This document shows, one piece after another, positions 6,284-31,400 of a stretch of DNA of 34,242 nt. Position numbers and translations under genes: made by a program. The notes beneath the pieces are model-generated. The model was not told where the DNA came from, made no database searches, and was given only the letters and a program-made list of their open reading frames with translations. This DNA comes from an uncultured Opitutia bacterium (GTDB lineage Bacteria > Verrucomicrobiota > Verrucomicrobiia > Opitutales > UBA953). The stretch is taken from positions 1-34,242 of the forward strand of contig CAIPVK010000037.1 of the NCBI GenBank assembly GCA_903868455.1. Reading direction: 5' to 3'. How positions within the stretch are numbered: the stretch's first letter is position 1; each line of letters starts with the position of its first letter.

Positions 6284-7165
6284 ATGAAGCGACCTCCCTT
6301 CCGACTCGTGCTCGCCGCCGTCGCCCTCGCCGGCGCCGTCGCCGCGACCCAGCTCGCCCTCCAGGCCAACCAGGAGCCGCCCGCCGCGCCGCCCACCTAC
6401 CAGCCCGCCGTGCGCGACAAGGACGGCCTGCTCGCGGCCTCGGGCCTCGTCGAGTCCGTCGCCGAGAACACGCTCGTCGGCGTGCCGTTCCCGGGCCTCG
6501 TCGCCGAGGTGCCCGCCAAGGTCTCCGCGCGCGTCAAGGCCGGCGACCCGCTGCTCGTGCTCGACACGCGCGAGCTCCGGCCGGCCGCCGAGGCCGCGCG
6601 GGCCGCGGCCGAGCGCGCCGAGGACCAGGCGCGCCGCCTCGCCTCCCTGGCCGGGACCGGCGCCGTCGCCGAGCGCGCGGTGACCGAGGCCGCGCTCGCC
6701 GCCCGCGAGGCCCGCGCCCGCGCCGACCTCGCCGCCGCCCAGCTCGAGCGCGCCACCGTGCGCTCGCCCATCGAGGGCACCGTCCTCCAGGTGGGCGTCC
6801 GCGCCGGCGAGTTCGTCGCCGCCGGCGGCAAGGCCCCCGTGGTGGTCGGCGACATCTCGCGCCTCCAGATCCGCTGCGACATCGACGAGCAGATGGCCCC
6901 GCGCATGCGCGAGAACCTGCCCGCGCGCGGCTACCTCAAGGGCGAGGCCGCCCGCGCCGGCGCCGCCGCCCGTCCCATCCCGCTTCGGTTCGTCCGCATC
7001 GAGCCCTTCGTCATCCCCAAGGCCTCGCTCACCGGCGCGAGCACCGAGCGCGTCGACACGCGCGTCCTCCAGGTCATCTACCAGTTCGATCGCCCGCAGG
7101 ACCGCCCCGTCTTCGTCGGACAGCAGATGGACGTCTACATCGACACCGCCCCCGATGCGAAGTAA
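6284..7165 (+). CDS. HlyD/DevB-family periplasmic adaptor subunit
   Basis: N-terminal TM anchor, lipoyl-like GLVAEVPAKVSARVKAGDPLLVLD, coiled coil, then ATVRSPIEGTVLQVGVRAGEFV. Confidence 0.9.
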   Translation: MKRPPFRLVLAAVALAGAVAATQLALQANQEPPAAPPTYQPAVRDKDGLLAASGLVESVAENTLVGVPFPGLVAEVPAKVSARVKAGDPLLVLDTRELRPAAEAARAAAERAEDQARRLASLAGTGAVAERAVTEAALAAREARARADLAAAQLERATVRSPIEGTVLQVGVRAGEFVAAGGKAPVVVGDISRLQIRCDIDEQMAPRMRENLPARGYLKGEAARAGAAARPIPLRFVRIEPFVIPKASLTGASTERVDTRVLQVIYQFDRPQDRPVFVGQQMDVYIDTAPDAK

Positions 7166-8555
7166 GGCCCTGCTCCTCGCCGCCGCCCTCGCGGGCTGCG
7201 CCTCCGGCGACCCCTCTATCCGCCCCGACCTCGCCCCGCTCGCCGCGGAGGCCCGTCTCTCCGGCGGCGGCGAGCGCGCCGCCGCCGCCTGGTGGCGCGC
7301 CTTCGGCGATCCCGACCTCGCCGCGCTTGTCGAGCAGGCGCTCCGCTCCAACCCCGACCTCGCCGTCGCCGCCGCCCGCGTGAGCGAGGCCCGCGCCGCC
7401 CTCGTGGCGGTCGACGCCGACCTGCTCCCGCGCCTCGACGCGCAGCTCGCGCTCGCCTCGCGCCGCCTCTCCAACCAGACGGGCCAGAACTTCCCCGGCA
7501 TGCCGCGCCGCACCGACGTCGGCTCGGCCGGCGTCCAGCTCTCCTGGGAGATCGACCTCTGGGGCCGCGCGTCCGACCGCTCGGCCGCCGCGCTCGGCGA
7601 CGCCGAGGCCGCCGCCTTCCGCGCCGCCGCGGCCGAGGTCTCGCTCGCCGCGTCCGTCGCGCGCTCCTGGTTCGCCGTCCGGCTCGCCCGCGAGGAGCTC
7701 GCCTGCCTCCGCGGCGAGTTCGCCTCGCGCCTGGAAGACGCGGGCCTGACCGAGCGCCAAGCCGCGGCCGGCGTGGTCGACGGCGACGCCCTCGCCGCCG
7801 CCCGCCTCGCCGCCGCGCAGGCCAAGGCCGACGAGCTCGACGCCGTCCGCCGTCTCGGCGCCGCCGAGAACGCGCTGCGCGTCCTCGTCGGCCTCCCCGC
7901 CGGTTCTCCGCTGCCGGGCGCCCTTCCCGACACCGCCGCCCCCGCCGTCCTCGCGCGGCAGCCCGCCTTCGGCGCGGGGCTGCCCTCCGAGCTCCTGCTC
8001 GCCCGGCCCGACCTGCGCGCCGCCGCGCGCGCCCTCGACGCCGCCCTCGCCCGCGAGGGCTCGGCCCGCGCGGAGTTCTACCCGCGCCTCATGCTGGTCG
8101 GCGACGCCGGCTGGTCGGCCGACCCCGCCTCGCGCGTCGGCAAGCCCGGCTCGGGCTTCTGGGGGCTCACGCCCTCCCTGTCCGTCCCGATCTTCGACGC
8201 CTCGCGCAACCAAGCCGGCCTCGAGGTCGCGCAGGCGCGCGTCGACCAGGCCGCCGCCGAGTGGCGCAAGGCCGTGCTCGAGGCCTTCCGCGAGGTCGAC
8301 GACGCGCTCGTCGACCTCCGCGAGATCGCCGTCCAGGAGGATCTCGCCGCGCGCGTGGTCGCCGCGGTCGGCGAGCGTCTCGCCAACGCCGAGGCCCGTC
8401 TCAAGGCCGGGCTCGCCGACCGGCTCGAGGTCGAGGCCGCGCGCCGCGACACGCTCCTCGCGCGTCGCACGCACGCCGGCTACGCCTGGCAGCGTCGCCA
8501 AGCGGCCGTCCGCCTCGCCGCCGCCACCGGCGGGGGGTTTCCGGCGGGGGAGTGA
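7155..8555 (+). CDS. NodT/OprM-type efflux RND/ABC outer membrane factor lipoprotein
   Basis: Lipobox LLLAAALAGCASG; two OEP-like repeats (WWRAFGDPDLAALVEQALRSNPDLAVAAARVSEARA; LLLARPDLRAAARALDAALA); 11-bp overlap with the adaptor. Confidence 0.92.
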   Translation: MRSKALLLAAALAGCASGDPSIRPDLAPLAAEARLSGGGERAAAAWWRAFGDPDLAALVEQALRSNPDLAVAAARVSEARAALVAVDADLLPRLDAQLALASRRLSNQTGQNFPGMPRRTDVGSAGVQLSWEIDLWGRASDRSAAALGDAEAAAFRAAAAEVSLAASVARSWFAVRLAREELACLRGEFASRLEDAGLTERQAAAGVVDGDALAAARLAAAQAKADELDAVRRLGAAENALRVLVGLPAGSPLPGALPDTAAPAVLARQPAFGAGLPSELLLARPDLRAAARALDAALAREGSARAEFYPRLMLVGDAGWSADPASRVGKPGSGFWGLTPSLSVPIFDASRNQAGLEVAQARVDQAAAEWRKAVLEAFREVDDALVDLREIAVQEDLAARVVAAVGERLANAEARLKAGLADRLEVEAARRDTLLARRTHAGYAWQRRQAAVRLAAATGGGFPAGE

Positions 8556-8585
8556 GGAGCGCGGAGTGAGGAGCGAGTTAGGAGC
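8551..8585 (+). repeat. Left arm of heptad array (AGTGAGG AGCGCGG AGTGAGG AGCGAGT TAGGAGC)
   Basis: Phased 7-mers starting inside the last codons of the outer-membrane-factor gene (GAG TGA GGA GCG). Confidence 0.65.
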
Positions 8586-8611
8586 TGGGCGTGAGTGCCT
8601 GGCCAATTCGC

Positions 8612-8635
8612 CCCCTTGGCATTAGGACGAAGGGG
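8612..8635. terminator. Candidate hairpin between convergent genes
   Basis: CCCCTT (8612-8617), 12-nt loop, AAGGGG (8630-8635); lies between convergent ends at 8555 and 8787. Confidence 0.35.
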
Positions 8636-8754
8636 AGCGGCCTGAAGCTTGTTGAGCTCCCGAAAGACTCTTCCCGACCTCGATTACGCGCCGTCGAGCC
8701 GTCGATCTGCCAATCCAAGTGGCTCGGGTAGTCGAATGGCTCCACGGGCTATCC

Positions 8755-8789
8755 GCCCGCTCCCCGCTCCTCACTCCCCGCTCCTCTTA
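8755..8789 (-). repeat. Right arm of heptad array (inverted; GCCCGCT CCCCGCT CCTCACT CCCCGCT CCTCTTA)
   Basis: Phased 7-mers on the complementary strand; last unit contains the gnd stop codon (tta, 8787-8789). Confidence 0.7.
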
Positions 8790-10286
8790 ACCCTCCAGCT
8801 GCGGGCGCTTGGGGTCGGGCCAGTCGATGTGGAAGAACTTCCCGCGGGGCTGGTCGACGCGCTCGTAGGTGTGGGCGCCGAAGAAGTCGCGCTGCCCTTG
8901 CAGGAGGTTCTGCGGGAGGTTCTCGGTGCGGTAGGAGTCGAAGTAGGCCAGGGCCGAGCCGAGGGTGGGGACGGGGATGCCGTGCTTCACCGCCAGGCCG
9001 ATCACCTTGCGCCAGTTCTTCTGGGCCTTGCGCATGGTCTTCTTGAAGTGGCCGTCCAGCAGGAGGTTGGCGAGGCGGGGCTTCTTCTCGAACGCCTCGG
9101 TGATCTTCTGGAGGAAGCGGGCGCGGATGATGCAGCCGCCGCGCCAGATCTGGGCGATCTCGCCGAAGTTGAGCTTCCAGGAGTATTCCTTCTGGGCCTC
9201 GCGCATGAGCTGGAAGCCCTGGGCGTAGGAGCAGACCTTCGCGCAGTAGAGCGCGTCGGCGATCATCGCCACGACCTTGGCGCGGTCGACCTTGCCGGCC
9301 ATGCGGGGCTTGGGGCCGCGCAGGGACTTGGCGGCGGCGACGCGCTCCTCCTTGATGGCGGAGAGGCAGCGGGCGAACACCGCCTCGGCGATGGTCGGGG
9401 CGGCCACGCCCATGTCGAGGGCGTTGGCGCTCGTCCACTTGCCCGTGCCCTTCTGGCCGGCGGTGTCGAGGATGACGTCCACGAGCGGCTTGCCGGTGAC
9501 GGGGTCCTTCTGGCGGAGGACCTTGCCGGTGATCTCGATGAGGAAGGAGTTCAGCTCACCCTGGTTCCACTCCTCGAAGACCGCCCCGATCTCGTCGGGC
9601 GTCATGCCGAGCAGGCCGCGCATGAGGTCGTACGCCTCGCAGATCATCTGCATGTCGCCGTACTCGATGCCGTTGTGGACCATCTTGACGTAGTGGCCCG
9701 CGCCGTCGGCCCCGATGTGGGCGACGCAGGGCACGCCACCCTGGATGGGCTTGCCCGGCTTGGCGCCGGTCAGCTCGACCCCGGTCACGGGGTCGACCTT
9801 GGAGGCGACGGCCTCCCAGATGGGCTTGAGCTCGGCCCAGGCCGAGGGGTCGCCGCCGGGCATCAGGGACGGGCCGAAACGGGCGCCTTCCTCGCCGCCG
9901 GAGACGCCGGAGCCGATGAAGCGCAACCCTTTGGCCTTCAGCGCCTTCTCGCGGCGGATGGTGTCCGTCCAGAGGGCGTTGCCGCCGTCGATGATGATGT
10001 CGCCGGGCTCGAAGACCTTGGCCAGCTCGTCGATCACCGCGTCGGTGGCCGCGCCGGCCTTCACGAGGATGACGGCCTTGCGGGGGCGCTTGAGGGAGGC
10101 GGCGAACTCGGCGACCGTGGCGGCGCCCGTCAGCTTGCCCGGGGTGGAGCGGTTGGCGGCCACGAACTCCTCCGTCTTGGAGGCCGTCCGGTTGTAGACG
10201 GTGATGGCGAAGCCGTGGTCGGCGATGTTCAGGGCGAGGTTCTGGCCCATGACCGCGAGCCCGATGAGACCGATGTCGGATTGCAT
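8787..10286 (-). CDS. gnd: 6-phosphogluconate dehydrogenase (decarboxylating)
   Basis: [34 protein letters not shown]...[17 protein letters not shown]...[21 protein letters not shown]...[23 protein letters not shown]...[26 protein letters not shown]. Confidence 0.98.
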
Positions 10287-15423: not shown

Positions 15424-16752
15424 TCAGGCCCGCGCGCCGTCGAGATAGGTCTGCCCCGCGCCGGTGATGCGGACGTCCACCAGCTCGCCGATGAGCGAGG
15501 CGGGGCCGTCGAGCACGACCCGCCGCTCGTTCTCGGTGCGCCCCATCAGGCGCCCGCCGCGCCGGTCGGGTCCCTCGACCAGCACGCGCTGGGTCGTCCC
15601 GACCTGCCGTAGGTTCTCCGTCGAGGAGCGCAGGGCGAGGATCTCCTGCAAGCGCGCGAGGCGCGCCTCCTTCTCCGCCGCCGGGACGTTGTCGCCCAGG
15701 GCGAAACCCGGCGTCCCGGGCCGCGGCGAGTACTTGAAGAGGAAGCCGTGCTCGAAGCCGAGCTCGCGGAACAGCGCCTCGGTCCGCGCGAAGTCCTCCT
15801 CCGTCTCCCCGGGGAAGCCGACGATCACGTCGGTCGAGAGCGTCATCCCGGGGCGCGCCTCGCGCAGCGCGGTCGCCAGCCGCCGGATGCGCTCCGCGAG
15901 GTAGGGCCGGTTCATCGCGCGCAGGATGCGGTCGGAGCCGGACTGGAAGGGCAGGTGGACGTGGCCGCAGAGCTGCGGGAGCTCGGCGTGCGCCGCCACG
16001 AGGTCCGGCCGGTAGCCGATCGGGTGGCAGGCCGTGTAGCGGATGCGCGCGATTCCCGGCACCTCGGCCACGCGGCGGAGCAGGGCGACGAACGGGCTGA
16101 CGCCGCCCTCCGCGCGCTGCGACCCCCGCCCGTACTGGTTCACGATCTGCCCGAGCAGCGTCACCTCGCGCGTGCCCGCCGCCGCGAGCGCGCGCACCTC
16201 GGCGAGGATGGATTCCGGCGAGCGCGAGCGCTCCCGCCCGCGCGTGCGCGGCACGACGCAGTAGGCGCAGCGCATGTCGCACCCCTGCTGGATGCTGACG
16301 AACGCCGCGACCTGCCGGGCCTCGTCGCGCCCGGGCAGCGCGTCCTCGAACCCCGCCTCCTCCGCGACGTCGACGCGCGCCGCGGGCGCGGGCTCGCCGA
16401 GCAGGCGCCCGAGGTGGTCCGGGATGTGGCGCAGGCGTTGCGTGCCGACGACGAGGTCCAGGTCCGGCAGCCGCTCGAGCAGGTCCGCGCCGCGGTTCTG
16501 CGCCATGCAGCCGAGGATGCCGACCAGCCGGGGCCCCTTGCCCGCGCGTCGGTCGCGCAGGAGATGGTCGGCCTTGCCGATCGCCTTCTCCTCGGCCAGG
16601 CCGCGGATCGAGCAGGTGTTGATCAGGACGATGTCCGCGCCCGCCTCTTCCGCCTGGACCTGGTAGCCCTTCGCCCGCAGCAGCGCCGCGACCCCTTCCG
16701 AGTCGCGCTCGTTCATCTGGCAACCGTAGGTGCGGATATGGACGCGGTGCAT
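15424..16752 (-). CDS. miaB: tRNA-2-methylthio-N6-dimethylallyladenosine synthase (MiaB)
   Basis: MHRVHIRTYGCQMNERDSE N-terminus, radical SAM cysteines GCDMRCAYCVVPRTRGRERSR, LSTDVIVGFPGETEEDF, GFLFKYSPRPGTP, C-terminal TRAM-like region. Confidence 0.96.
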   Translation of the reverse strand: MHRVHIRTYGCQMNERDSEGVAALLRAKGYQVQAEEAGADIVLINTCSIRGLAEEKAIGKADHLLRDRRAGKGPRLVGILGCMAQNRGADLLERLPDLDLVVGTQRLRHIPDHLGRLLGEPAPAARVDVAEEAGFEDALPGRDEARQVAAFVSIQQGCDMRCAYCVVPRTRGRERSRSPESILAEVRALAAAGTREVTLLGQIVNQYGRGSQRAEGGVSPFVALLRRVAEVPGIARIRYTACHPIGYRPDLVAAHAELPQLCGHVHLPFQSGSDRILRAMNRPYLAERIRRLATALREARPGMTLSTDVIVGFPGETEEDFARTEALFRELGFEHGFLFKYSPRPGTPGFALGDNVPAAEKEARLARLQEILALRSSTENLRQVGTTQRVLVEGPDRRGGRLMGRTENERRVVLDGPASLIGELVDVRITGAGQTYLDGARA

Positions 16753-16794
16753 TCGGTCGGAGAATTCAGAGGAAAGATTTCAAAGTAAAGAGGG

Positions 16795-16863
16795 TACGGG
16801 GAGCGAGGAGCGAGGAGTGGGGTACGAGGAGCGGGGAGCGGGGAGCGAGGAGCGGGGAGCGAG
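16795..16863 (+). repeat. Ten phased 7-bp units (consensus AGCGRGG), left arm of inverted heptad pair
   Basis: tacgggg agcgagg agcgagg agtgggg tacgagg agcgggg agcgggg agcgagg agcgggg agcgag. Confidence 0.85.
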
Positions 16864-16952
16864 CCCATGAAATTCCAGCCCCGTTGTCTGGGCGGCTACG
16901 ATGCTTCCCTCGCTCGAGATTCAGGGGAGCGCGATTTTCCTTTCAGCCCGTC

Positions 16953-17001
16953 ACCCACTTCTCGCTCCCCGCTCCCCGCTCCCCGCTCCTCACTCCTCAA
17001 C
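16953..17001 (-). repeat. Seven phased 7-bp units, inverted right arm
   Basis: acccact tctcgct ccccgct ccccgct ccccgct cctcact cctcaac; last unit contains the stop codon of the response regulator. Confidence 0.85.
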
Positions 17002-18112: not shown

Positions 18113-21100
18113 ATGAGACTCACCAAGACCGCCTTGGTTGCCGCCGCCTGCGCGCTGACCGCTTTCCAAGTCCGAGCCCAGGCCCAAGTAGGCCCCGTCA
18201 CCGTCCTCGACCCCGCCATCACGATCGCGGTCGACACCACCCTGACCAATCCCGCCGGGGGAGGCACCATCGCCATCACGCCGGGTGCGACCCTGACGAT
18301 CTTCAGCGAGTATGCCACGACGGTCGACGCCGCCTTCCTCGAGAACGGCGACACCGCCGCCGCCAACCTGACCCCCGTCGACGGCGTCGTCTTCAAGGTC
18401 GATCCGCTCACCGGTCTCCCGACGGGCGGCAACGTCGTCAAGGAGGGCGGAGGCGTCCTCCAGATCAACTCATGGACCGTCCTTTCCGGCACCCAGCGCG
18501 CCGGCACGGCCTGGTGGGCCGACACCGACGGCGCCCTCGGCTACGACGATCCTTTCACCGCCTCCTCCCACCTCGTCGGGGGCGACAGCATCAGCGATCT
18601 CCAGCCCACCGTCACGGGCGATCCCGACGGCCGCAACGCCACCCGCCTCAACGGCCTGCAGGGCACCTTCACCATCAACCAGGGCACGGTCCGCCTCGCG
18701 GGCTTCCTCAACGTCTGGCACGATCAGGGCGACAACGACACCATCAACCTCGCCCCGCTCGGCCCTCCCCCTCGCTTCACCGTCGAGAACGCCGACCAAG
18801 CCCCGCTGCTCTCGCAGCGCATGACCGGGGTCTCCGCCATCATCCTCAACGGTTCGTCCGTCCTTGAGCTGACGAACTCGCCGCTCAATATCCCGACCGG
18901 CACCTCCAACGTCGTCACCCAGGGCAACGCCCTGCGCGTCCAGTACCTTCGCAACCTGCAGGCCGGCCTCGACGCCGACACCGGCGCGGAGCACGACCAG
19001 ATCCAGACCGAGCTCGTCGTCGGCACCACTTCCGAGTACCGCGCCCTCGTCCACATCGACCAAGGCCGCACCGGCTCCATCGGCATCCTCGCCGGCGCGG
19101 GAGACGTGGTGAAGTCCGGCGCGGGCGATTTCCTCGTCATCAACGAGTCGCGCCTCACCGGCAACGTCACGGTCGCGGGCGGCCGTCTCATCCTCGATTC
19201 CGCCGAGGGGCGCGCCCTCGCCAGCGCGGCGAGCGTCACGCTGGCCGGCACGGTCGACGCCACCGACCTCGCCGCGGCCTCCGACACCGCCATCTCCACC
19301 GGCTCCCGCCGCGGCGCCCATGTCCGCTACCTCGAGCAGGACATCGACACCAACGGCGACGGGATCGACGAGCCCCGTTACAAGCCCGCCTACGCCCCCG
19401 CCCCCGGCACCCGGATCCTCACGTCCGTCGACGCCGCCGGGGTCATCACCTGGTCCGAGACGCTCTCCGGCGCCGAGCTCGAGATCCGCGGCGACCAGAC
19501 GATCCGCAACTTCCAGTCCAACTTCGCCCTGTCGGCCGCGCCCGACACCGCCGGCACCTTCGCCAACACCGCCGCCTCCGCCGTCCAGCGCGCGGCCGAC
19601 GTCACCAACCGCGGCGAGCTCGTCATCGCCGGCACCGGCAAGGGCGCCGCCGTCATCCTCGGCGGCCATTCCCTCACCGTCCGGCAGGACAAGGGCCGCG
19701 ACGGCCTCTACGAGGGCAAGATCCTCGGCGGCTTCGACTACGCCGCCACGCTGACCGACGAGGGCGCCGGCTCCTACCTGCTCGCCTTCGACGCGCTGCC
19801 CTCCTTCGGCACCTTCCAGCTCCGCGTCACCGGCTCGGAGGATGGCGCCGCGCCGCGACTCACCGCCGCGACCGACGTCACCTCGGCCGACGAGATCCGC
19901 TCCAACATCGCCTCCGCCCTGGGCATCGCCCCCGCCTCCGTCACCGTCACCGACGTCAGCGCCCTGACCGGCGACGCCCTCGCCTGGCGCGTAGACGTCG
20001 GCGCCTCGGGCACCCTCGACCAGGCCCTCAACCTCCGCGCCGGACGCCTCGTCCTCGACGCGACGTCCGCCGACGCCAAGCTCGCGCTCAACCTCGAGGA
20101 GTCGACCTTCGGCGAGATCGAGACCCGCGCCGGCGCCCTCATCGTCAACGCCGTCGGGCTCGGCAACTCCCGCGTCAACGTCGCCTCCGGCGAGCTCCGC
20201 CTCTTCCAGAACGACACCGGCACGCTCGAGGCCTCCGTCCTCGGCGCCGGCACCCTCCGCGTCGTGGCCTTCGCGGAGATCGACAACGGCTCGGGCACGC
20301 CCATCCAGATCAACTCCGAGGGCACGCGCGGCACGCTCAACTTCGCCCAGCAGCAGCTCGGCTTCACCGGCGAGCTCGTGGTCAACGACGGCGTCAACGT
20401 CTCCCTCTCCGCGGTCGGCGGCCCCGGCGCGATCGTCGACACGCTCGCCAACGCCTCCGCCATCACGCTCGACGGCCAGGGCGGGCCCGGCTCCACGCTC
20501 AGCTTCAACGACACCAACCAGCTCGTCCGCAACCTCTCCGGCGACGCCGCCTCGCGCATCGAGCTCGGCCGCGGGACGATGACGCTCGTGCAGGCCGACG
20601 GCTCGCGACGGTTCCTCGGCGAGATCACCGGCGTGGGCAGCATCCTCAAGGAGGGCTCGGCCGACTTCGCCTTCCGCGGCGTCGACGCCCTCGGCGTCGC
20701 CGGCAGCGACTTCACCGGCGCCCTCGCCGTCCGCCAGGGCTCCGTCTCGCTCGCCACCGCCGACACCCTGCGCTCCGTCTCCGGCGTCGCGCTCGTCTCG
20801 GGCGCCACGCTCGCCTCCTCCGGGACCAACCAGACCTTGGGGGCGCTCTTCGGCGAGGCCGGCAGCACCGTCAACCTCGGCGCCGCCACCCTGAGCGTCG
20901 GCTTCACGCCGGCCCAGCTCGCGGCCTTCCGCCAGCAGCTCGAGACCTCCTTCGGCCTGCAGCTCACCCTGGCCCACAACTACCTCGGCACGACCGGGAA
21001 CGCCTACGACCTGCTCCGCTTCACGCCCCCGCTCGCCGCCTCGCGCCTGCTCGAGGCGGGCGACCTCGACCGCACCCCGCTCAACATCACGGTGGGCGAG

Positions 21101-24100
21101 GAGATCGACTTCCTGGCCGGCGACCTCGGCATGGCCGACCAGACCCGCATCTACCTCGAGCGCGTGCTCTACCGCCTCGACCGCGACGGCGACGGCTCCA
21201 TCTCCGCCGGGGAGGAGGCGACCGCCGCCGCGTCCGCCGCCACCCTCGGCTTCGCCGGCTCGATCATCGCCACCGGCGCAAACCAGTCCGTCGCCTTCGG
21301 GGGCGAAACCGTCGTCGCCAAGGTCGCCCTCAGCAAGACGGGTTGGGAGACGCTCCGCCTGCTCGGATCCTCCAACCAGCTCGGCGGCGCCGCCGTGGTC
21401 GTCCGACAGGGCGTCCTCGAGGCCGCGCCCGCCGCCCTCGCCACCGCGGGCTCGGTCGTCGTCCTCGCCAACTCCGCCACGCTCGACCTCGACGGCGACG
21501 GCGACATCGACGCCGACCTCGCCCTCGGCGGCGTGGATGTCAACAACGACGGCGCCTTCGACGACGCCGACCGCGTCGTCGACGGGACGCTCGCCCTTTT
21601 CGTCGACGCGGGCTCCGTCGACTGGACCCTGCCCATCCTCGGCGACGGCAACCTGCGCAAGACCGGCGCCGGCACCCTCAGGCTCTCGCCCACCTCGGCC
21701 CTCCACACGGGCCTGACCGAGGTCGAGGGCGGCACGCTCGAGCTTACGCTCCTCCGCGCCTCGGCCGACCCCCTCGTGCTCGACGCCACGCTCGGCGCCG
21801 CCACCGTCTCGGCCGACGCCACCCTCGCCCTGCGCACCGACTCGGCACTTACCGGCGTCGGCACCGACTTCGCCTATGTCGCCGCCGGCGGCATCGCGGG
21901 CGACGGCACCCTGGCCAAGCTCGGCCGCGGGACCCTCTCCATCGACGGCTCGCTCGTCGCCGTGACCGGCGGTCTCCGCGTCGACGGCCTCGGCGCGCCC
22001 CTCACCACCCTTTCCCTCGACGTGCGCGAGGGCGCCTTGCGCTTCACCGGCGAGCTGCCCTTCGGCGGCTTCGTCGGCCGCTCCGCCATCGCCGAGGGCG
22101 CCGCCCTTGTCCTCGACCTCGACGCGGGCGACACCGCGACGCTCTCCGCAGAGCTCTCCGGCGCCGGCACGCTGCGTCGCACCGGCGCGGGCGTCCTCGC
22201 CCTCGACACCGACCCGACCTACGCCGCGCCCGCCACCCTCGGGTCGCTCGGCTTCACCGGCAGCCTCGAGCTCGCCGGAGGCGAGACCTCGATCGAGAAC
22301 GCCGGCGCCTTCGCCAACGCCAAGGTCGCCGTGCTCGGCGCGGGAACCACGCTCACCCTCCGCGCCGGCGCCTATCGCTTCGCCGGCCTGACCGGCGAGG
22401 CTGGCACGATCTTCGCCCTCGACCCCGCGACCGTCCTCACGCTCGACGTCACGACGCCCGCCGGCGCCGCCACGCCCCGCCTCGACACCTTCCTCGGCCG
22501 GTTCACCGGCTCGGGCGACCTTGTGAAGACGGGCGACGGCATCCTCAGCCTCGAGCCCGACGCGGCCAACGCGCTCGGCGGCATCACCGTCGCCGCCGGC
22601 ACGCTCCGCGCCAGCATCGACGGCATCGGCTCGGCCACCTCCCTGGCCGTGGACGCCGGCGCGTTCCTCGAGTTCAACGTGGCCACCGGCGCCGACGAGA
22701 CCTACCTCGCCGCCATCACGGGCGCCGGCGCGGTCTCCAAGTTCGGTGACGGCATCCTCCGCCTCCTCGGCGACTCGACCCTGTCCACCGGCGACCTGCG
22801 CGTCCTCGGCGGCGCCTTGGTCGTCGACGACCGCCGCGTCGGCGGCGTCATCCCCGCGGCCGCCGTCTCCGAGGGCGCGACCCTCGAGGTCCTGCTCACC
22901 GGCGACCGCAGCCTCGCCTCCCAGGTCACCGGAGCCGGCAACCTCGCCTTCGACGGCGACGGCGTCGCCCGGACCGTCACCCTTCTCAACGCGCCCGCCC
23001 ACACCGGGCTCGTCTCCCTCAAGGGCCTCGCCTCGCTCGCCTTTGACGCCGCCGTCGGCGACGTCACCCTCGGCGGCTTGGCCGCCGACACCGGCAGCGT
23101 CGTGACGCTCAACGGTGGCCAGACGCTGACCCTCGACCAGACCTCCGACGGGTCGTTCCTCGGCTCCTTCGCCGGTTCCGGCAACCTCGTCATCCAGGGC
23201 GAGGGCGTCTTCGCCTACGAGGCCGACTCGGGCGACCTCGGCGCCTTCGGCGGCACCGTCACGGTCGACGGCGGCAAGCTGCAGGTCGGCGTGGCCAACA
23301 CCAAGGAAATCGCCCTCGCGGACGGCTCCACCCTCCTGATCGACGTCGCCGATCCCCTCGCGACCGCGGCCTACGCCGGCCAGCTCGAGGTGCTCTCCGG
23401 CACCGCCTCGCTCGTCAAGGTGGGCGCGGGCACGCTCGACCTCACCGCCGGTATCCCGCGCGACCCCCTGTCGCCCGGCGGCATCGACACCCTGACCGTC
23501 TCCGAGGGTCGCGTCCTCGCCGGCGTGGTGGCCGGCGCCATCCTCGACGGCGCCGACATCATCCTGGCCGACGGCGGCTCGCTCGCCGTCTCCGTCGCCG
23601 CCGACACCACCGTCTCCATCACCGAGCTGATCACCTCGGATGGCTCCGGCGGCGGCGCCTTCGAGAAGGACGGCGCCGGCACGCTCGTGCTCGAGAAGGG
23701 GACTTCCACCGCCGACCTGACCGTCACGGCCGGCACCCTCCAGCTCGGCCTCCCCGCCGCGACCGCCGCGGTCGGGGGCGATGTCACCGTCGCGACCGGT
23801 GCCGCGCTCACCGGCGCGGGTTCCGTCTCCGGCGACCTCGCCAACGCGGGCACCCTCGCTCCGGGGTATTCCCCGGGCACGCTCACCGTCGCGGGCGATT
23901 TCACCAACTCCGGCAACCTGGTCATGGAGCTCGGCGCCGCCGACAATGACCGCATCCGGTTCGCGGGCGCCGCCACCCTCAATGACGCCGGGACCGGGAC
24001 GCTCGAGCTCGTCCGCTTCGGCGCAGGTTCCCTCTTCGGCCGCCGAGCCGACCTTCTTGTCGACACGGCCTCGCCCGGCGCCCCCAGCTTCGTCGACGCC

Positions 24101-25378
24101 GGATCAGGCGCGCGCTTCGCCGATGTCGTCACGCGCACCTCGGACAACCTGCGCACCCTGGTCTTCTACCCCTCCTCCCTCGCGTCCGATCCCCGCCTCG
24201 CGGTGAGCGGCCTCGCGCGCGACGGCGAGGTGGCCGCCTATGCCGTCCGATCGGACGCCGAGTACGCCGCGCTCCTCGCCGGCAATCCCTACCTCGCGAC
24301 CATCCAGGCCGCCGCCCGCGTCGACCTCGTCGCCGACCCGGTCGACGGCGCCATCAGCCGCTCCACGCTCGCCGGCACCTTCACCGCCTTCGGCGCCCGC
24401 CTCGCGGTGCTCTCGGACGACGCCCTGCGCACGGCCGTGGCGAACTTCTCGCCGCGCGGCCATGCCGCCGCCCTCTCCGGAGCGGTCGCAGGATTCCGCT
24501 CGCACGCCGACACCCTCCAGCGCCGGCTCGAGCAGCGCCGGTTCGACGGCGCCGACATGTCGGTCAAGTCCAACGACTGGTTCGTCGACGCGACCGCCGG
24601 CCAGCTCGACCTCGACAACGGCGGCGAGGCCCGCAACAGCGGCGCCACCGCCGGCCTGATCCGCCCCATGGGCGTGGACGGTTACTGGGCCGTCACCCTC
24701 GGGGTCGAGACGCTCGACGCCGAGGCCGGTTCGGCCGGTTACAAGGGCGCCGGCTTCCGCGTCGGAGGCGCCGTGGGCGTGATGAACGTCAACCGCACCC
24801 TCTCCCTCGACGCCGGCGTCTCCCTCGCCTCGCTCTCCGGAGACCTCTCGCGCAGCTCGCTGCTGGGCGGCTCCAATGTCACCGATCCCTCGGCCACCGG
24901 CATCGGCCTCTGGGTCAGGGGCTCCGCCGCCGTCGCCGTGGGCGACCTCGCGCTGACACCCTTCGTCTCCCTGGAGCATTCCAAGACCTCGCTCGACGCC
25001 ACCCGAGAGTCCAACCCCGGCGATTCCCTGGCCGTGTCCGACATCGACCATACCCAGACCGCCGCCCGCGCCGGCTTCGGCCTTCACCGCAGCTGGGTCT
25101 CGGATGCCGGCGACTGGCGCTATCGCCTCGGTCTGGAGGTCGCCTACGCCCTCCAGCTCGACGGCGACGACGCGACCATCGTCTCCAGCCACGCCCAGCT
25201 CGGCGGCGGCGACGTCTCCTCGACCTTCGGCGTCCTGCCCGGCGACGGCCTCTCCGTCGCCCCCACGTTCACCTTCGGCCCCTCGCCGGACAGCACCTTC
25301 ACCCTCGGCCTGCGCCTCGAGCAGGGTTCCGAGGGCGAGGCCACCTCGCTCCAGCTCGGCTATCGCCGCAAGTTCTGA
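18113..25378 (+). CDS. Giant autotransporter (type V secreted) with PATR beta-strand repeats and C-terminal beta-barrel, copy 1
   Basis: Signal peptide MRLTKTALVAAACALTAFQVRAQA; many units of the type GSGDLVKTGDGILSLEP..GGITVAAGTLRAS; APGYSPGTLTVAGDFTNSGNLVMEL before the barrel; ends FTLGLRLEQGSEGEATSLQLGYRRKF. Confidence 0.93.
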   Translation: MRLTKTALVAAACALTAFQVRAQAQVGPVTVLDPAITIAVDTTLTNPAGGGTIAITPGATLTIFSEYATTVDAAFLENGDTAAANLTPVDGVVFKVDPLTGLPTGGNVVKEGGGVLQINSWTVLSGTQRAGTAWWADTDGALGYDDPFTASSHLVGGDSISDLQPTVTGDPDGRNATRLNGLQGTFTINQGTVRLAGFLNVWHDQGDNDTINLAPLGPPPRFTVENADQAPLLSQRMTGVSAIILNGSSVLELTNSPLNIPTGTSNVVTQGNALRVQYLRNLQAGLDADTGAEHDQIQTELVVGTTSEYRALVHIDQGRTGSIGILAGAGDVVKSGAGDFLVINESRLTGNVTVAGGRLILDSAEGRALASAASVTLAGTVDATDLAAASDTAISTGSRRGAHVRYLEQDIDTNGDGIDEPRYKPAYAPAPGTRILTSVDAAGVITWSETLSGAELEIRGDQTIRNFQSNFALSAAPDTAGTFANTAASAVQRAADVTNRGELVIAGTGKGAAVILGGHSLTVRQDKGRDGLYEGKILGGFDYAATLTDEGAGSYLLAFDALPSFGTFQLRVTGSEDGAAPRLTAATDVTSADEIRSNIASALGIAPASVTVTDVSALTGDALAWRVDVGASGTLDQALNLRAGRLVLDATSADAKLALNLEESTFGEIETRAGALIVNAVGLGNSRVNVASGELRLFQNDTGTLEASVLGAGTLRVVAFAEIDNGSGTPIQINSEGTRGTLNFAQQQLGFTGELVVNDGVNVSLSAVGGPGAIVDTLANASAITLDGQGGPGSTLSFNDTNQLVRNLSGDAASRIELGRGTMTLVQADGSRRFLGEITGVGSILKEGSADFAFRGVDALGVAGSDFTGALAVRQGSVSLATADTLRSVSGVALVSGATLASSGTNQTLGALFGEAGSTVNLGAATLSVGFTPAQLAAFRQQLETSFGLQLTLAHNYLGTTGNAYDLLRFTPPLAASRLLEAGDLDRTPLNITVGEEIDFLAGDLGMADQTRIYLERVLYRLDRDGDGSISAGEEATAAASAATLGFAGSIIATGANQSVAFGGETVVAKVALSKTGWETLRLLGSSNQLGGAAVVVRQGVLEAAPAALATAGSVVVLANSATLDLDGDGDIDADLALGGVDVNNDGAFDDADRVVDGTLALFVDAGSVDWTLPILGDGNLRKTGAGTLRLSPTSALHTGLTEVEGGTLELTLLRASADPLVLDATLGAATVSADATLALRTDSALTGVGTDFAYVAAGGIAGDGTLAKLGRGTLSIDGSLVAVTGGLRVDGLGAPLTTLSLDVREGALRFTGELPFGGFVGRSAIAEGAALVLDLDAGDTATLSAELSGAGTLRRTGAGVLALDTDPTYAAPATLGSLGFTGSLELAGGETSIENAGAFANAKVAVLGAGTTLTLRAGAYRFAGLTGEAGTIFALDPATVLTLDVTTPAGAATPRLDTFLGRFTGSGDLVKTGDGILSLEPDAANALGGITVAAGTLRASIDGIGSATSLAVDAGAFLEFNVATGADETYLAAITGAGAVSKFGDGILRLLGDSTLSTGDLRVLGGALVVDDRRVGGVIPAAAVSEGATLEVLLTGDRSLASQVTGAGNLAFDGDGVARTVTLLNAPAHTGLVSLKGLASLAFDAAVGDVTLGGLAADTGSVVTLNGGQTLTLDQTSDGSFLGSFAGSGNLVIQGEGVFAYEADSGDLGAFGGTVTVDGGKLQVGVANTKEIALADGSTLLIDVADPLATAAYAGQLEVLSGTASLVKVGAGTLDLTAGIPRDPLSPGGIDTLTVSEGRVLAGVVAGAILDGADIILADGGSLAVSVAADTTVSITELITSDGSGGGAFEKDGAGTLVLEKGTSTADLTVTAGTLQLGLPAATAAVGGDVTVATGAALTGAGSVSGDLANAGTLAPGYSPGTLTVAGDFTNSGNLVMELGAADNDRIRFAGAATLNDAGTGTLELVRFGAGSLFGRRADLLVDTASPGAPSFVDAGSGARFADVVTRTSDNLRTLVFYPSSLASDPRLAVSGLARDGEVAAYAVRSDAEYAALLAGNPYLATIQAAARVDLVADPVDGAISRSTLAGTFTAFGARLAVLSDDALRTAVANFSPRGHAAALSGAVAGFRSHADTLQRRLEQRRFDGADMSVKSNDWFVDATAGQLDLDNGGEARNSGATAGLIRPMGVDGYWAVTLGVETLDAEAGSAGYKGAGFRVGGAVGVMNVNRTLSLDAGVSLASLSGDLSRSSLLGGSNVTDPSATGIGLWVRGSAAVAVGDLALTPFVSLEHSKTSLDATRESNPGDSLAVSDIDHTQTAARAGFGLHRSWVSDAGDWRYRLGLEVAYALQLDGDDATIVSSHAQLGGGDVSSTFGVLPGDGLSVAPTFTFGPSPDSTFTLGLRLEQGSEGEATSLQLGYRRKF
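24455..25378 (+). repeat. Copy-1 C-terminal barrel region, long direct repeat with 30687-31622
   Basis: Colinear with copy 2 apart from a 12-bp (4-aa) length difference; includes ttccgctcgcacgccgacaccctccagcgccggctcgagcagcgccg, identical at 24494 and 30726. Confidence 0.8.
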
Positions 25379-25400: not shown

Positions 25401-28400
25401 ATGCGCCTCAGCCGCACCTTCCTCGCCCTCGCCGCCGGCCTCGCCGGCAACGCCTCGGCCGCCAACATCACGGTCGACGGCGACCGGACGATCACATCGC
25501 TCTCGGAGATGACGGGCAACAACTTCGCCCTCGGCAACGGGGCGACCCTGGTCATCGACCTCCAGAACGCCCTCGGCGCGCCGATCGACGGCACGTTCTC
25601 GGGAGCGTTCCAGGATGGTTCCTACGACGGCACCGGCGCCCTCAACCCCGGCCTCGACCGCACTGGCACCCTCGTGAAGGCGGGCGGCGGCACGCTGCAG
25701 TACAACGGCTTCTCCAACCTCGGCTACCTCGGAAACCGCTCGTTCGACGGCGGCCTGCTCTCGCCGCTACCGACCGACCTCCGCCCGCTCGTCGCCGGCG
25801 GGACCTCCAACGCCGGCGCCCAGCAGGGCTTCGGCGGCATCGTCATCATCCAGCAGGGCCAGCTGCAGGTCTCGGGCTACATCAACCAGTGGGCCGACTA
25901 CGGTCCCTTCAACGCCGCCTTCGGCGTCGGGGGCGTCATGCTCGGCGCCGCCGCGACGGTGGTCGACGCCGGCGGCAAGATCTCCTTCCGCAACACCGCG
26001 CTGAACCTGCCCGGCGCCGCCGCCAACCTCGACGACACCGAGCACAACAACCCGGCCACCCCGCTGGTCGGCCGCCTGAATTACCTCAACAACCTCCGCG
26101 CCTCCACCGCCTCGCGCGTCGAGACCGGTGCCGACGACACGCACATCCTCGTCCTCCATTCCGACATGGACGCGGTGGGCCTGCCCTTCGCGGAATCGAC
26201 CCTCGGCGTCCTCGAGGGCAAGGGGCGCGTCTACAAGACCGGCGCGAGCGACCTGCGCGTCACCAACTCCTCGACCTTCTCCGGCGAGTTCGTCGCCAAC
26301 GGCGGGCGTCTCATCCTCGCCGCCGGCTCCGGCGACACCCTCTGGTCCGCCAAGTCCGTCAATCTGGCCTCGGGAGGGCAGGGCACCAACGTCGGCTTCG
26401 ACGTCGGCGACAGCCTGCACTGGAAGCCCAGCTACGCTCCCGGCAACGCCGGCCCCACCACCCTCGTCGTCCAGGGAGCCCAGCGACTCCGCAACTTCCA
26501 GTCGCTCTACGCCGACGGCGGGTTCACCTCGCTGCTCCTTCCCGGCACCGGCGCGGGCAACTTCGTCGAGCTCGCCTCCGCCGGCGACATCCTGACCGTC
26601 GACCACGAGGCGGGCTACGACGGCTATTTCACCGGCTCCGTCGTGGGCGCCGCCGACGCCGTGACCGGCGTCCGCGGCCAGGCCCTCGGCACGCTGGTCA
26701 AGACGGGCGAGGGCGCCCTCGCCCTCTTCTCGGTCGGCAACAACATGAGCCGTCTCGAGATCCGCGCCGGCCGCGTCGTCTCCAACGTCCAGAGCCTCGG
26801 CTCGGGAGAGGTCGTCCTCTCCGGCACCGGCTCGCTCAGCATCGTCCAGAACGACGCCGGCGCGCTGCGCGCGGTGATCCGCTCCGACTCGACCGCCACG
26901 ACGACCTCACTCGTCTTCCGCCCGACCGACAGCATCCAGTACCGCGGCGCCGACGGCGCCGACCTCGGCAACGCCGACGAGGGTCTCGCCGACATCGTCG
27001 TCGCCCAGCCGTTCTTCTACGGCCAGGTAATCGTCGAGGACGGCAACGACATCGCCTTCTCCGCCGGCAACAACAACGCCTTCGAGAACGCCTCCGCCAT
27101 CATCCTCAACGAGGGCGCGAGCGGCCGCGAGACCTCCATCCGCTTCAACGACACCAACCAGCTCGTCCGCAACCTCCAAGGTTCCGCCTCCTCCCGCATC
27201 TACCTCGGCCGCGGCGACATCACCTTGGTCAACGCCGCCTCCACCACCTACTCGGGCGGCATCTCCGGCGTCGGCAACCTGATCAAGTCCGGCGCCAACA
27301 CCTTCACCCTCGCCGGCTCCAACAACTACTTCGGCGCGACCGTCGTCACCGGCGGCTCCCTCGTCGCCTCCTCCGCCTCCGGCATCGGCAACACCTCCGG
27401 CCTCGTCGTCGACGCCGACGCCGTCTTCACCGCGACATCCGAACAAGCCATCGGCGGGCTCTTCGGCCTCGCCGGCGCCAAGGTCACCGTTTCCGGCGCC
27501 CTCACGGTCGGCGTCCCCGACGACCTCCGCGACCGTCTTGTGAGCGAGCTGGACAGCCTGCCCGGAACCGTCCCCGCCGTCTCCGCCGCCTACTATCTCG
27601 CGACCGAGTCCGCCGGCGTCCTGCCCGGCTTCGGCTTCTCGCCCGCCACCACGCTCGGCTATCTGGTGCGCCAGTACGGCCTTGTCGCCGCCGGCGCGAC
27701 TGAAGCCGAGGTCGCCGCCTACCTCGACGCCGACGGGTCCGGCTCGACGACCCTCGACGACCTCTCGGCAGGGGATATCGAGGCGAACCGCGACCTGCTC
27801 GCCTTCTCCGGCGCCCTGACGGTCGGCGGCGCCCTGACCAAGACCGGCGCGGAGCGGCTCACCCTCCTCGGGACGGTCACCTTCACCGGGGCGGATCGCC
27901 GCGTCATCGTCGAGCAAGGCACGCTCGAGGTCGCCCTCGCGACCCTCGGCTCCGCCTCCGCCATCGAGGTCGGCGCCGACGGCGCCATCGAGCTGGGCGT
28001 CTCGGCCGACAGCACCCTCGGACTCGCCCTTTCCGGCACCGGCACCTTCCGCAAGACCGGGGCCGGCGCCCTGCGTGTCGACCGCGGCGCGGGCGCGCCC
28101 GCCTTCGACGGTCTCTACGACGTCCTGGGCGGCGACCTCACCGTCGCCTTCCGTCCCTCCGCCCTCGCCGGCGTCGCCCGCGAGGGCTCCGTCGCGACGG
28201 CGGCCGGCACCTCCTTCACCGCCGAGGTCGCGACCGATCTGTCGTGGGCGGGCGAGGTGTTCGGTTCCGGCGATTTCATCAAGACCGGCGCGGGCTCGCT
28301 CACGATGACCTCCGAGGCCGTCTCGCCGCTCTTCACCACCGGCACCGTCCGCGTCGTCGGGGGAGCCCTCACGGCCGCCGCCACGCCCGAGGCCGACCTC

Positions 28401-31400
28401 GCCATCGCCGCCGGCGCCGCCTTCACCGCCGCGCTCCTCCAGGACGACTTCTTCGACGGCGTCCTCTCCGGGGCCGGCACCTTCGCCAAGACGGGGGCCT
28501 TCGACCTCCGCATGGAGACCGTCGCCACCTTCACCGGCGACGTCGAGGTGACGGAAGGCTCGCTCTCGCTGGGCGCCGCCGGCGTCCTCGCCACCGCCGG
28601 CTCCATCTCGCTGGCCGCGGGCACAACGCTCAATGTCCTGGACGGCCTCGCCCAGTCCCTGAACAACGTCAGCGCCGAGGACGGCACCGCCTCGGTCGTC
28701 GCCGAGGTCGCGGGCACCGAGCTCACGCTCGACGTCCTTGCGGGCGACGAGCTCGACTTCCCCGCCCAGATCCTCGGATCCCCCGTCATCCTCAAGACCG
28801 GCGCCGGCAAGCTCAGCTTCATTCGCGACGTCGGGGCGGATAACGTCATCCAGGCGATCGACATCCAGGGAGGCGAGCTCGAGGCCTCCCTCTCGGGCCT
28901 CGGCGGCGCGACGCTCAATGTCGGAGCGCTGGGAACCCTCCGGTTCTTCGCCGACGATGGCGTCACCGACACCTACGCCGCAGGCTTCACCGTCACGGGC
29001 GATGGAAAGGTCGCCAAGTCGGGCGCCGGCACGGTCGACCTCGCGGCCGCCGACCTTTCCACCATCTCCGCTGACTTCGACATCTCCGGCGGCACGCTCG
29101 TGCTCTCCCGCGCCGCCCTCGGCGCGCGCCTGCCCGCCGCCACCGTCGCGGAAGGCGCCACCCTCGCCTTCGAGACGGACGCCGACATCACCCTCGACGC
29201 CGACGGCATCACGGGCGGTGGCAATCTCGAGCTCCGCGGCGCCTTCGGTATCGACCTCACCCTGGGCGACGCGGGTTCCCCGGGTTACACCGGCTCCACG
29301 GTCCTCGCCGACGGCGTGACCGTGCGTCTCGCCTCGCCCACCGGTTCCGCGGCATTGGGTGGCCTTTCCGCCGAGGCCGGAACCACCCTCGACACGAGCC
29401 TGCTCGGCGACCTTGAGCTCACGCTCGACGGCGACACCGCCTTCGATGGGGCGCTTGTCGGCTCGGCCGACCTCGTCCTCGCGGGCGAGGGCGCGCTCGA
29501 CTTCACCGACGGCGACACCGGCGGCGACCTCGCCGGCTACCTCGGATCCATCACCCTTGACGGCTCATCCGCCATCCTCTCCACCGGAAACACCAAGGAT
29601 CTCGCCCTCTCGAACTCCGCCCGCGTGGTCCTGACCGGCGCGGCCTCCCAGGCTTACGCCGCAGGCTTGTCGGGAGACGGGACCGGGATTGTCGCCCTCG
29701 GCGCCGCCGCCACCCTCGACCTGGTGGCCAACCCCCTCACCTCGCTCGACGACGGCTTCGTCGCCAAGGTCGAGCTTCTCGCCGGTTCCACGCTGACCAT
29801 GGGGCTTTCCGGCATTTCCCTCGACAAGGTCGTCGACCTCTCGCTTTCCGGCGGCACCTTGGAGCTGGGGCTCACCGAGGCCACGGGAACCCTCGACCTC
29901 GCGGCGCCGCTTGCGGGCGCGACCGGCGGCGACCTGGACATCGCCACCGCCTTGGGCTCGGCTCGCGTGGACATCACAGGTTCCCTCGCCGGCAACCTCA
30001 CCCTCGGCGACAAGGTCACCCTTGGCGGCACCCCCACCGTCGTCGGCACCCTTACCGTCGAGACTGGCGCGCGCATCGCCCCCGGCTTCTCCCCCGGCAC
30101 CGTCACGACCACCGACTTTGTCAACGCCGGCACCCTTGTCATGGAGCTGGGTTCCTCCTCCAACGACCAGATTCTCTTCTCCGGCACCGCGGACCTCAAC
30201 AACGGCGGGACGGGCCGGCTCGAGCTTGCCCTCTACGGCGCCGGAAACCTCTTCGGCCGCCGCCAAGTCCTGCTGGCCGACACCGCGTCTCCGGGAGCCG
30301 GAAGCTTCATCGGCGCCGCGCCCAGGTTCGCCACGGTCGTCTCCACCGATGCCTCCCCCCTGCGCGTCCTCCTCGTCTATCCCTCCCAGTTGCAGGCGGG
30401 ATTGGACGGCATCTTGGGCAACGCGGACGACGCCGCCGACCCGCTCGGCTTCCTTGCGACTCCGGGGCAGGTCGCCGCGTATGTCGTGAGGTCGGGCGCC
30501 GATTACGACGCCACCCTCGCCGGCTCCCCTTACCTCGCCGCCATCAAATCGCGCGCCCAGGTTGACCTGACTCCCGTCGCCGGCGGTTCCTCGTCCAGCC
30601 TGGCGCCCACCTTCAACTCCTACGGCGCGCGTCTGGCCATCCTTGGCGACACCGCCTTGATCGCCGCGGTCGACAACCTCAGGCCCCGCGGCCATGCCGC
30701 CCTGCTCTCCGGGGCGGCCGCCGGGTTCCGCTCGCACGCCGACACCCTCCAGCGCCGGCTCGAGCAGCGCCGATTCGATGGCGCCGACATGTCGGTGAAA
30801 ACCGCCGACTGGTTCGTCGACGCCACCCACGGCCAGCTCGACCTCGACAACTCCCACGAGGCGCGGAACACCGGCGCCACCGCCGGCACCATCCGCCCGA
30901 TGGGCGTCGACGGCTACTGGGCCGTCTCGCTCGGCGTCGAGAACCTCAAGGCCGACGGAGGCGCCACCTCCTACAAGGGCAACGGCTTCCGCCTCGGCGC
31001 CGCCGCCGGCGTGATGAACGCCGCCCGCACGCTCTCGCTGGACGCCGGCCTCTCCTACGGCTCGCTCTCCGGCGACCTCACGCGTCCCTCGCTGGTCGGC
31101 GGCAACAATGTCACCGATCCCAAGGCGGAAACCCTCGGTCTCTGGGTCCGCGCTTCCGCCGCGACCTCGGTCGGCGGGCTCGCCGTCACGCCGTTCATCT
31201 CGCTTGAGCACGCCAAGACCTCGCTCGACGCCACCCGCGAGACGGGCGCGGCCGACCCTCTCGGCGACTCCCTCGCCGTGCGCGACGCCGACCACACCCA
31301 GACCGCCGCCCGCGCCGGCCTGGGCCTTCACCACAGCTGGGTCTCGGACGGCGGCGATTGGCGCTACCGCCTCGGCCTGGAGGTCGCCTACGCCCTCCAG

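Follow-up and report, generated by a model that had tools for sequence, protein, structure and literature searches.

Paired inward-pointing heptad arrays with a fixed polarity form a dispersed family in an Opitutia genome and recur in other bacteria

Two loci of tandem 7-nt repeats were found in the stretch of DNA analysed here, and both are members of a genome-wide dispersed family of heptad arrays that occur in pairs and point inward. The stretch, referred to below as the window, is 34,242 nt long and is contig 37 of a 1.66-Mb assembly in 301 contigs; its genome is designated G000, a genome of the same genus G002, and a genome from another genus of the same family G024. Between a response regulator gene and a miaB-type gene, the first-pass annotation had described phased arrays of ten units and, inverted, of seven units, and a re-reading of the sequence gave exactly these, with arms at 16795-16864 and 16953-17001. 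The left arm, on the + strand, is composed of the ten units TACGGGG, AGCGAGG, AGCGAGG, AGTGGGG, TACGAGG, AGCGGGG, AGCGGGG, AGCGAGG, AGCGGGG and AGCGAGC, and the inverted arm, read directly on the - strand from 17001 down to 16953, of the seven units GTTGAGG, AGTGAGG, AGCGGGG, AGCGGGG, AGCGGGG, AGCGAGA and AGTGGGT, the unit type of both being AGYGRGG. The spacer, previously estimated at about 90 bp, measures 88 nt, and on comparison it had no similarity to the spacer of the second locus, as had also been remarked; the interval cited at that time for the latter (8586-8754) corresponds approximately to the spacer of the 8547-8577/8756-8786 pair. The features of the two loci are as follows.

7155 to 8555, + strand: gene for an outer membrane efflux protein (OEP), convergent with the 6PGD gene
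8547 to 8577, + strand: left array of the second pair, including the stop codon of the efflux gene (TGA, 8553-8555)
8756 to 8786, - strand: right array of the second pair, ending exactly at the 6PGD stop codon (8787-8789)
8787 to 10286, - strand: gene for 6-phosphogluconate dehydrogenase (6PGD), whose open frame reaches 10466
15424 to 16752, - strand: miaB-type gene (UPF0004, Radical_SAM and TRAM), transcribed away from the left array
16753 to 16793, - strand: AT-rich repeat CTTTACTTTGAAAT CTTTCCTCTGAATT of about 14 nt (2 x 7), between the left array and miaB
16795 to 16864, + strand (purine strand): left array of ten AGYGRGG-type heptads, antisense to miaB and some 44 nt upstream of its start
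16865 to 16952, no strand: spacer between the two arrays, unlike other spacers and without an Rfam match
16953 to 17001, - strand (purine strand): right array of seven heptads, sense to the response regulator gene and including its stop codon
16997 to 17728, - strand: gene for an OmpR-type response regulator (Response_reg and Trans_reg_C), with its TGA (16999-16997) inside the outermost array unit

The response regulator and miaB genes are in tandem, both on the - strand, while the OEP and 6PGD genes converge. The presence of a stop codon within the outermost unit of one arm, to which the earlier reading had drawn attention, was confirmed for the response regulator and proved to be an instance of a general rule and not a coincidence. 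The two arms at this locus gave array scores of 59 and 39-42, against a best score of 14 in 2000 shuffles of the same intergenic region, and two-unit matches with at most one mismatch numbered 16 in the window where 1.3 were expected. A scan of the whole window against Rfam matched no family. The AT-rich repeat beside the left array can be written as CTTTACTTTGAAAT / CTTTACTTTGAATT, that is 14 nt or 2 x 7, and its motif was found again at L058, L072, L080 and L085 of the window genome; another AT-rich heptad array, ATTAAGAATTAAGAATTAAAAATTAA, is identical at L072:3565-3590 of G000 and L158:4-29 of G002. Elsewhere in the window, positions 18113-25378 and 25401-31622 are occupied by adjoining giant genes of about 2400 and 2070 aa, the former with a weak autotransporter-type PATR repeat. 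A G002 sequence gives matches of about 70% to the 3' end of each, which suggests a C-terminal domain common to the two.

A count of such arrays across the genome, on which the proposal of a repeat family had been made to depend, went far beyond two loci. The exact three-unit pattern gave 72 matches on 26 contigs of G000 and its reversed form a single match, and a 340-kb sample of this genome (38 kb of it masked) held 59 arrays, as opposed to 0-2 in each of five Markov shuffles. These shuffles replaced the reversed or complemented sequence as the null control, which was dropped because AGCGAGG is nearly identical when read backwards. When any period-7 array in noncoding DNA of G000 was searched for, almost solely the AGYGRGG unit family was recovered. 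Among 57 genomes searched the pattern was present in three (G000, G002 and G024) and absent from 54, and a class-wide search of 141 genomes gave five with a match, G000 included, so that the distribution within the class is sporadic. The G002 sequence was identical to that of the metagenome-assembled genome SFB_Fresh_Co_44 (JAURJZ010000047.1) across the 8-kb stretch compared, which places the genus in Verrucomicrobiota. Arrays of this AGYGRGG type also occur in named isolates of other phyla, such as Spirosoma fluviale DSM 29961, and together with the same-genus genome these bear out the earlier suggestion that the two window loci represent a repeat family.

The arrays are strongly constrained in their polarity. 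Inward ('+-') pairs outnumbered outward ('-+') pairs by 17 to 0 in G000, 5 to 0 in G002, 16 to 0 in S. fluviale and 10 to 1 in G024. When strong inverted repeats were sought with no use of the unit sequence, four genomes gave 45 purine-first and no pyrimidine-first cases, and 400 kb of another Spirosoma, chosen regardless of arrays, gave 7 to 0, or 52 to 0 altogether. With respect to genes, the arrays lie in the sense direction after stop codons and antisense upstream of starts, a rule followed at 47 of 49 positions in G000, 20 of 22 in G002 and 25 of 26 edges in the named strain S. fluviale DSM 29961, which belongs to another phylum. In G000 the arrays after stop codons were sense in 24 cases and antisense in 2, mostly within -11 to +15 nt, and those upstream of starts were antisense in 23 cases and sense in none; genes were called in these counts by a simple caller of our own, and the number of arrays within ORFs is conditional on an open frame. 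Since the rule is valid whether neighbouring genes converge, diverge or lie in tandem, gene orientation is not its cause. According to Rehm et al. (2015; PMC4692102), the GGGAATC repeats of Xanthomonas obey equal rules, including convergent pairs and overlap with stop codons, and the paired inverted heptamer architecture is thus a kind already known. The purine-first polarity regardless of unit sequence appears to be new among the open papers searched.

In relatives the pairs were also found inside genes. Called genes contained 36 of the 38 arrays of G024, and ten element pairs of this genome lie within open frames, in most cases with known domains on either side; the hosts include UvrA, MetH (two elements), the NAD-dependent DNA ligase LigA, a Mur ligase, a CobW-like protein and a MiaB/RimO-like protein. 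These in-frame elements are located on L223-L242 (for example L236:2553-2741, L242:5013-5194 and L234:10745-10936), and the G024 elements have in common a subterminal GGGGAG(GAA/ATA)GTGCGG and inner AAGGGCA or AAGGGAT heptads. The UvrA element of G024 replaces a short native loop of its congeners, reading KLVRFL[element]LLLDEPTTGLH as opposed to KLVRFLGAFDTNKHALILLDEPTTGLH. In S. fluviale an AGYGAGG pair (folding z -16) occupies a different loop of UvrA, and at that loop other Spirosoma species carry purine-first pairs of AGTGAAG/AGTTAAG (z -9.8), of AATGGAT type or of AGGGCAT type, or weak remnants; the inverted repeat before SHT[IL]DFLTG differs by species across L255-L279, which provides a natural turnover series. 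Strict AGTKAAG and AGGGCAW patterns gave almost no matches in Spirosoma, probably owing to greater variation of those units there. Several S. fluviale proteins (L205, L207, L215, L218 and L222) have C-terminal tails encoded by an array, for example LGARSEE* or RSEE*. That the heptad unit of the UvrA loop changes between species while its polarity is kept speaks for viewing the pairs first of all as insertions or mutations that unconstrained sequence can tolerate, and for tracing the orientation rule at gene edges to the pairs themselves and not to the genes. In-frame insertion was not found in the G000 sample, unlike in G024 and Spirosoma, and its occurrence in housekeeping genes of two phyla appears to be new within the open literature searched.

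The order of the units bears on how the arrays are built. Slippage would yield neighbouring units that are alike and arms that are unlike one another. In G000, identical neighbours occurred at a frequency of 0.153 where 0.170 was expected, the choices at position 3 (C/T) and position 5 (G/A) had autocorrelations of -0.05 and -0.23, neither of them positive, and there was no heterogeneity between arms at these positions (P 0.54 and 0.95), which indicates that the arrays were built otherwise. Copying of a fixed element would yield a common unit order, but the order shared among G000 arms amounted to 2.75 units, hardly above the 2.61 +/- 0.09 units of shuffled arms, and the arms are therefore not such copies. 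No covariation of arms within pairs was found in G000 or G002, the two arms of a pair being no closer than arms of different pairs, and the G000 spacers did not share a core: apart from one match of 92 nt, their similarities were short, scattered and of low complexity. To judge from the open papers searched, this lack of a slippage or copying signature in the unit order of G000 also appears to be new. In G002 unit identity was raised at lag 2 (small n). In S. fluviale, arms of the same pair were somewhat more alike than chance (P 0.025), and AGTTAGG tends to be outermost and AGTGAGG innermost, which suggests copying or foldback there.

Turnover by whole units was observed between G000 and G002. 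At the orthologous pair L058/L177 the spacer is conserved and the arrays differ by whole heptads, at L064/L157 the arrays are kept and the spacer has diverged, and the OEP-6PGD arrays (absent in G002) and L073 are present in only one of the two genomes. The L058:184-268 and L177:3176-3259 spacer is 92% conserved beside arrays that differ by many units, and it is possibly a promoter or a small RNA. The AGYGRGG arrays of G000 have as their counterparts in G002, at L144:9712-9931 and L129:800-1560, loose G-rich repeats of another type (GGGGCAC, GGGGCTC), in which the unit may have been replaced or have decayed. The response regulator-miaB junction was not seen in G002, in which both genes have other neighbours. 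Both the G002 and the UvrA comparisons revealed unconstrained sequence that had been replaced, with no clean empty site. Arrays were not significantly enriched at breaks of synteny, in a count that took L053 and L058 as broken although they are syntenic.

Tentatively, and at somewhat short of an even chance, we propose that the pairs result from a polar process that lays or inserts heptads and is tolerated in unconstrained DNA. Such a process would insert or overwrite DNA in a manner that places a purine-rich run of heptads 5' on either strand and its pyrimidine complement second, and the pairs would survive solely where sequence is unconstrained: right after stop codons, some tens of bases upstream of starts, and in protein loops of relatives. 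The runs of G000 resemble what independent draws from a unit degenerate at two positions (A-G-C/T-G-G/A-G-G) would give, although selection by a binding protein for unit degeneracy could mimic them. We infer a process that is mutational or insertional, not selected for regulation, with a molecular actor that may lengthen 3' ends with heptads. Read-through transcripts would fold into a very stable hairpin, by which transcripts might secondarily be protected or separated, and any hairpin function of the pairs is probably secondary. Against the polar process stand the failure to identify an enzyme or mobilising gene, the enrichment of arrays in convergent gene pairs (P 0.002), as a 3'-end function predicts, and the lack of a significant enrichment at synteny breaks, which an origin in break repair predicts. 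In a more specific form, which we regard as quite unlikely, a DNA-synthesis activity of several phyla would add degenerate purine-rich heptads to free 3' ends before these are rejoined, for example at breaks or gaps, and would leave inward-pointing arrays around a filler at unconstrained places. Such scars would be a bacterial analogue of the interstitial telomeric ones made by telomerase, of which we know no bacterial counterpart.

The pairs could instead be selected as bidirectional transcript-end structures or insulators. A transcript running into the intergenic region from either gene would contain the purine arm followed by the pyrimidine arm and would fold into a long hairpin, by which transcripts are terminated, stabilised or kept apart. 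The window pair has a predicted RNA fold of -128 kcal/mol (z -7.9), convergent regions made up 11 of 28 array-bearing regions against 5 of 57 others (P 0.002), the arrays adjoin stop codons in the sense direction, and only 3 T-tract terminators, where 5.5 were expected, were found over the initial 18.5 kb of the window. We nevertheless consider this explanation unlikely, as pairs also lie between divergent genes, in the tandem gap between the response regulator and miaB and in frame within housekeeping ORFs of relatives, the arms do not covary within pairs in G000, and most members of the class have no such arrays; the pairs within ORFs and the UvrA loop series are not predicted by a regulatory cause. 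Nor is the window hairpin followed by a T-tract, and no rho-independent terminator, a GC hairpin with a T-tract, was found at 16795-17001. Given the stable predicted fold and the enrichment in convergent gaps, the pairs may plausibly help, as a secondary role, to end transcripts or keep them apart. Formation of G-quadruplexes in DNA or RNA, considered for the simple repeats of Xanthomonas and Nostoc, would fit G-rich heptads with equal positional preferences (PMC4692102), and a canonical quadruplex is possible in 28 of 38 G024 arrays. Four tracts of at least three G, however, were present in only 14 of 59 arrays in G000, 2 of 30 in G002 and none of 38 in S. fluviale, and the position rule applied regardless; quadruplex formation is therefore not the common cause, and we hold it to be highly improbable as a reason for which the arrays are kept.

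We also consider it unlikely that the pairs are mobile elements resembling MITEs or Rickettsia palindromic elements (RPEs), mobilised in trans and with the heptad arrays as terminal inverted repeats. Dispersed pairs with inverted ends, in-frame insertions in ORFs as for RPEs (PMC10969869), the common subterminal motif and inner AAGGGCA heptads of G024, and the outermost AGTTAGG and innermost AGTGAGG tendency in S. fluviale are all consistent with it. A core common to spacers, however, was found only partly in G024 and not in G000, where the arms are not copies either, and the boundaries fall at stop codons and not at random positions. A REP-associated transposase, which the first-pass annotation had thought worth looking for, is not supported as the driver, since the sole Y1_Tnp match in G000 was below the cut-off and array-rich G024 had none; G002 had one above the cut-off. 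REP sequences, defined as 20-40 bp palindromes with a GTAG/CGTC tag in PMC3733652, have no equivalent in these arms, which are heptad arrays without such a unit. Ordinary microsatellites arising from chance seeds by polymerase slippage, with inverted pairs produced through foldback, would explain why orthologous arrays of G000 and G002 differ by whole units, and a 7-nt polymerase footprint has been put forward (PMC4679880, PMC4692102). We judge this very unlikely, because G000 has neither an excess of identical neighbours nor heterogeneity from arm to arm, one unit family is present at dozens of dispersed places, and polarity is fixed. That the arrays are an artefact of assembly or binning, an objection anticipated from the start, has a likelihood close to nil: the window does come from a fragmented assembly, but arrays of the same kind recur in independent assemblies, in G002 at an orthologous position, and also in S. 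fluviale DSM 29961, a named strain.

Heptamer repeats have long been known to be over-represented in bacteria, without an explanation, and slippage with a 7-nt footprint and G-quadruplexes are the standing ideas (PMC4692102, PMC4679880). Here one architecture with one polarity recurs with differing units in Verrucomicrobiota and Bacteroidota, housekeeping genes included, and in G000 the unit order is at odds with both slippage and the copying of a fixed element, so that the origin of heptamer repeats becomes open to direct test. New protein loops and C-termini also arise from heptad pairs, as in UvrA, LigA and MetH and in the 'LGARSEE*' tails of Spirosoma.

The STRR repeats of cyanobacteria are heptanucleotide tandem arrays dispersed in intergenic DNA, and to our knowledge a paired inverted architecture is not part of their definition. 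They resemble the present arrays in being tandem, heptanucleotide and dispersed, with a different unit, and are a looser parallel than the Xanthomonas repeats. The likeness to STRR first proposed stood for unit length and was otherwise incomplete, the paired convergent heptamers of Xanthomonas being closer (PMC4692102). TAACTGA heptamers of Beggiatoaceae, Cyanobacteria and Bacteroidetes (PMC4679880) are likewise sporadic arrays in unrelated phyla, some over stop codons or within ORFs; unlike ours, they are nearly all direct (a single case is inverted), mostly point to the start codon and have another unit. Rickettsia palindromic elements (Ogata et al.; PMC10969869) are palindromic DNA in frame in unrelated housekeeping genes, a likeness seen in G024 and Spirosoma, but RPE families have a conserved peptide, whereas here the heptad arms are degenerate, the spacers unrelated and the G000 pairs intergenic. 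Mammalian interstitial telomeric sequences, inserted at double-strand breaks (PMC2246262, PMC7215372), are also polar short-unit repeats at internal sites and offer an analogy for addition at 3' ends, although they are eukaryotic and made by telomerase, for which no bacterial counterpart was found here. Closest are the inverted heptameric G-rich repeats of Xanthomonas (GGGAATC) and Nostoc (GGGGAYT), as presented by Rehm et al. (2015; PMC4692102). Like the present arrays, these consist of 7-nt tandem units, G-rich on one strand, in dozens to hundreds of dispersed arrays; they form convergent (inward) pairs in Xanthomonas, lie on the coding strand at most 50 bp after stop codons, or overlapping them, and on the non-coding strand upstream of starts, vary in length between relatives and belong to no functional gene class. 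Whereas their unit is GGGNATC or GGGGAYT and four G tracts are preferred, here the unit is AGYGRGG, in the phylum Verrucomicrobiota, and most arrays have no canonical quadruplex (14 of 59 do). The G000 arrays, for their part, have a unit order with no slippage signature, and the relatives studied here differ from those systems in carrying in-frame pairs inside housekeeping genes.
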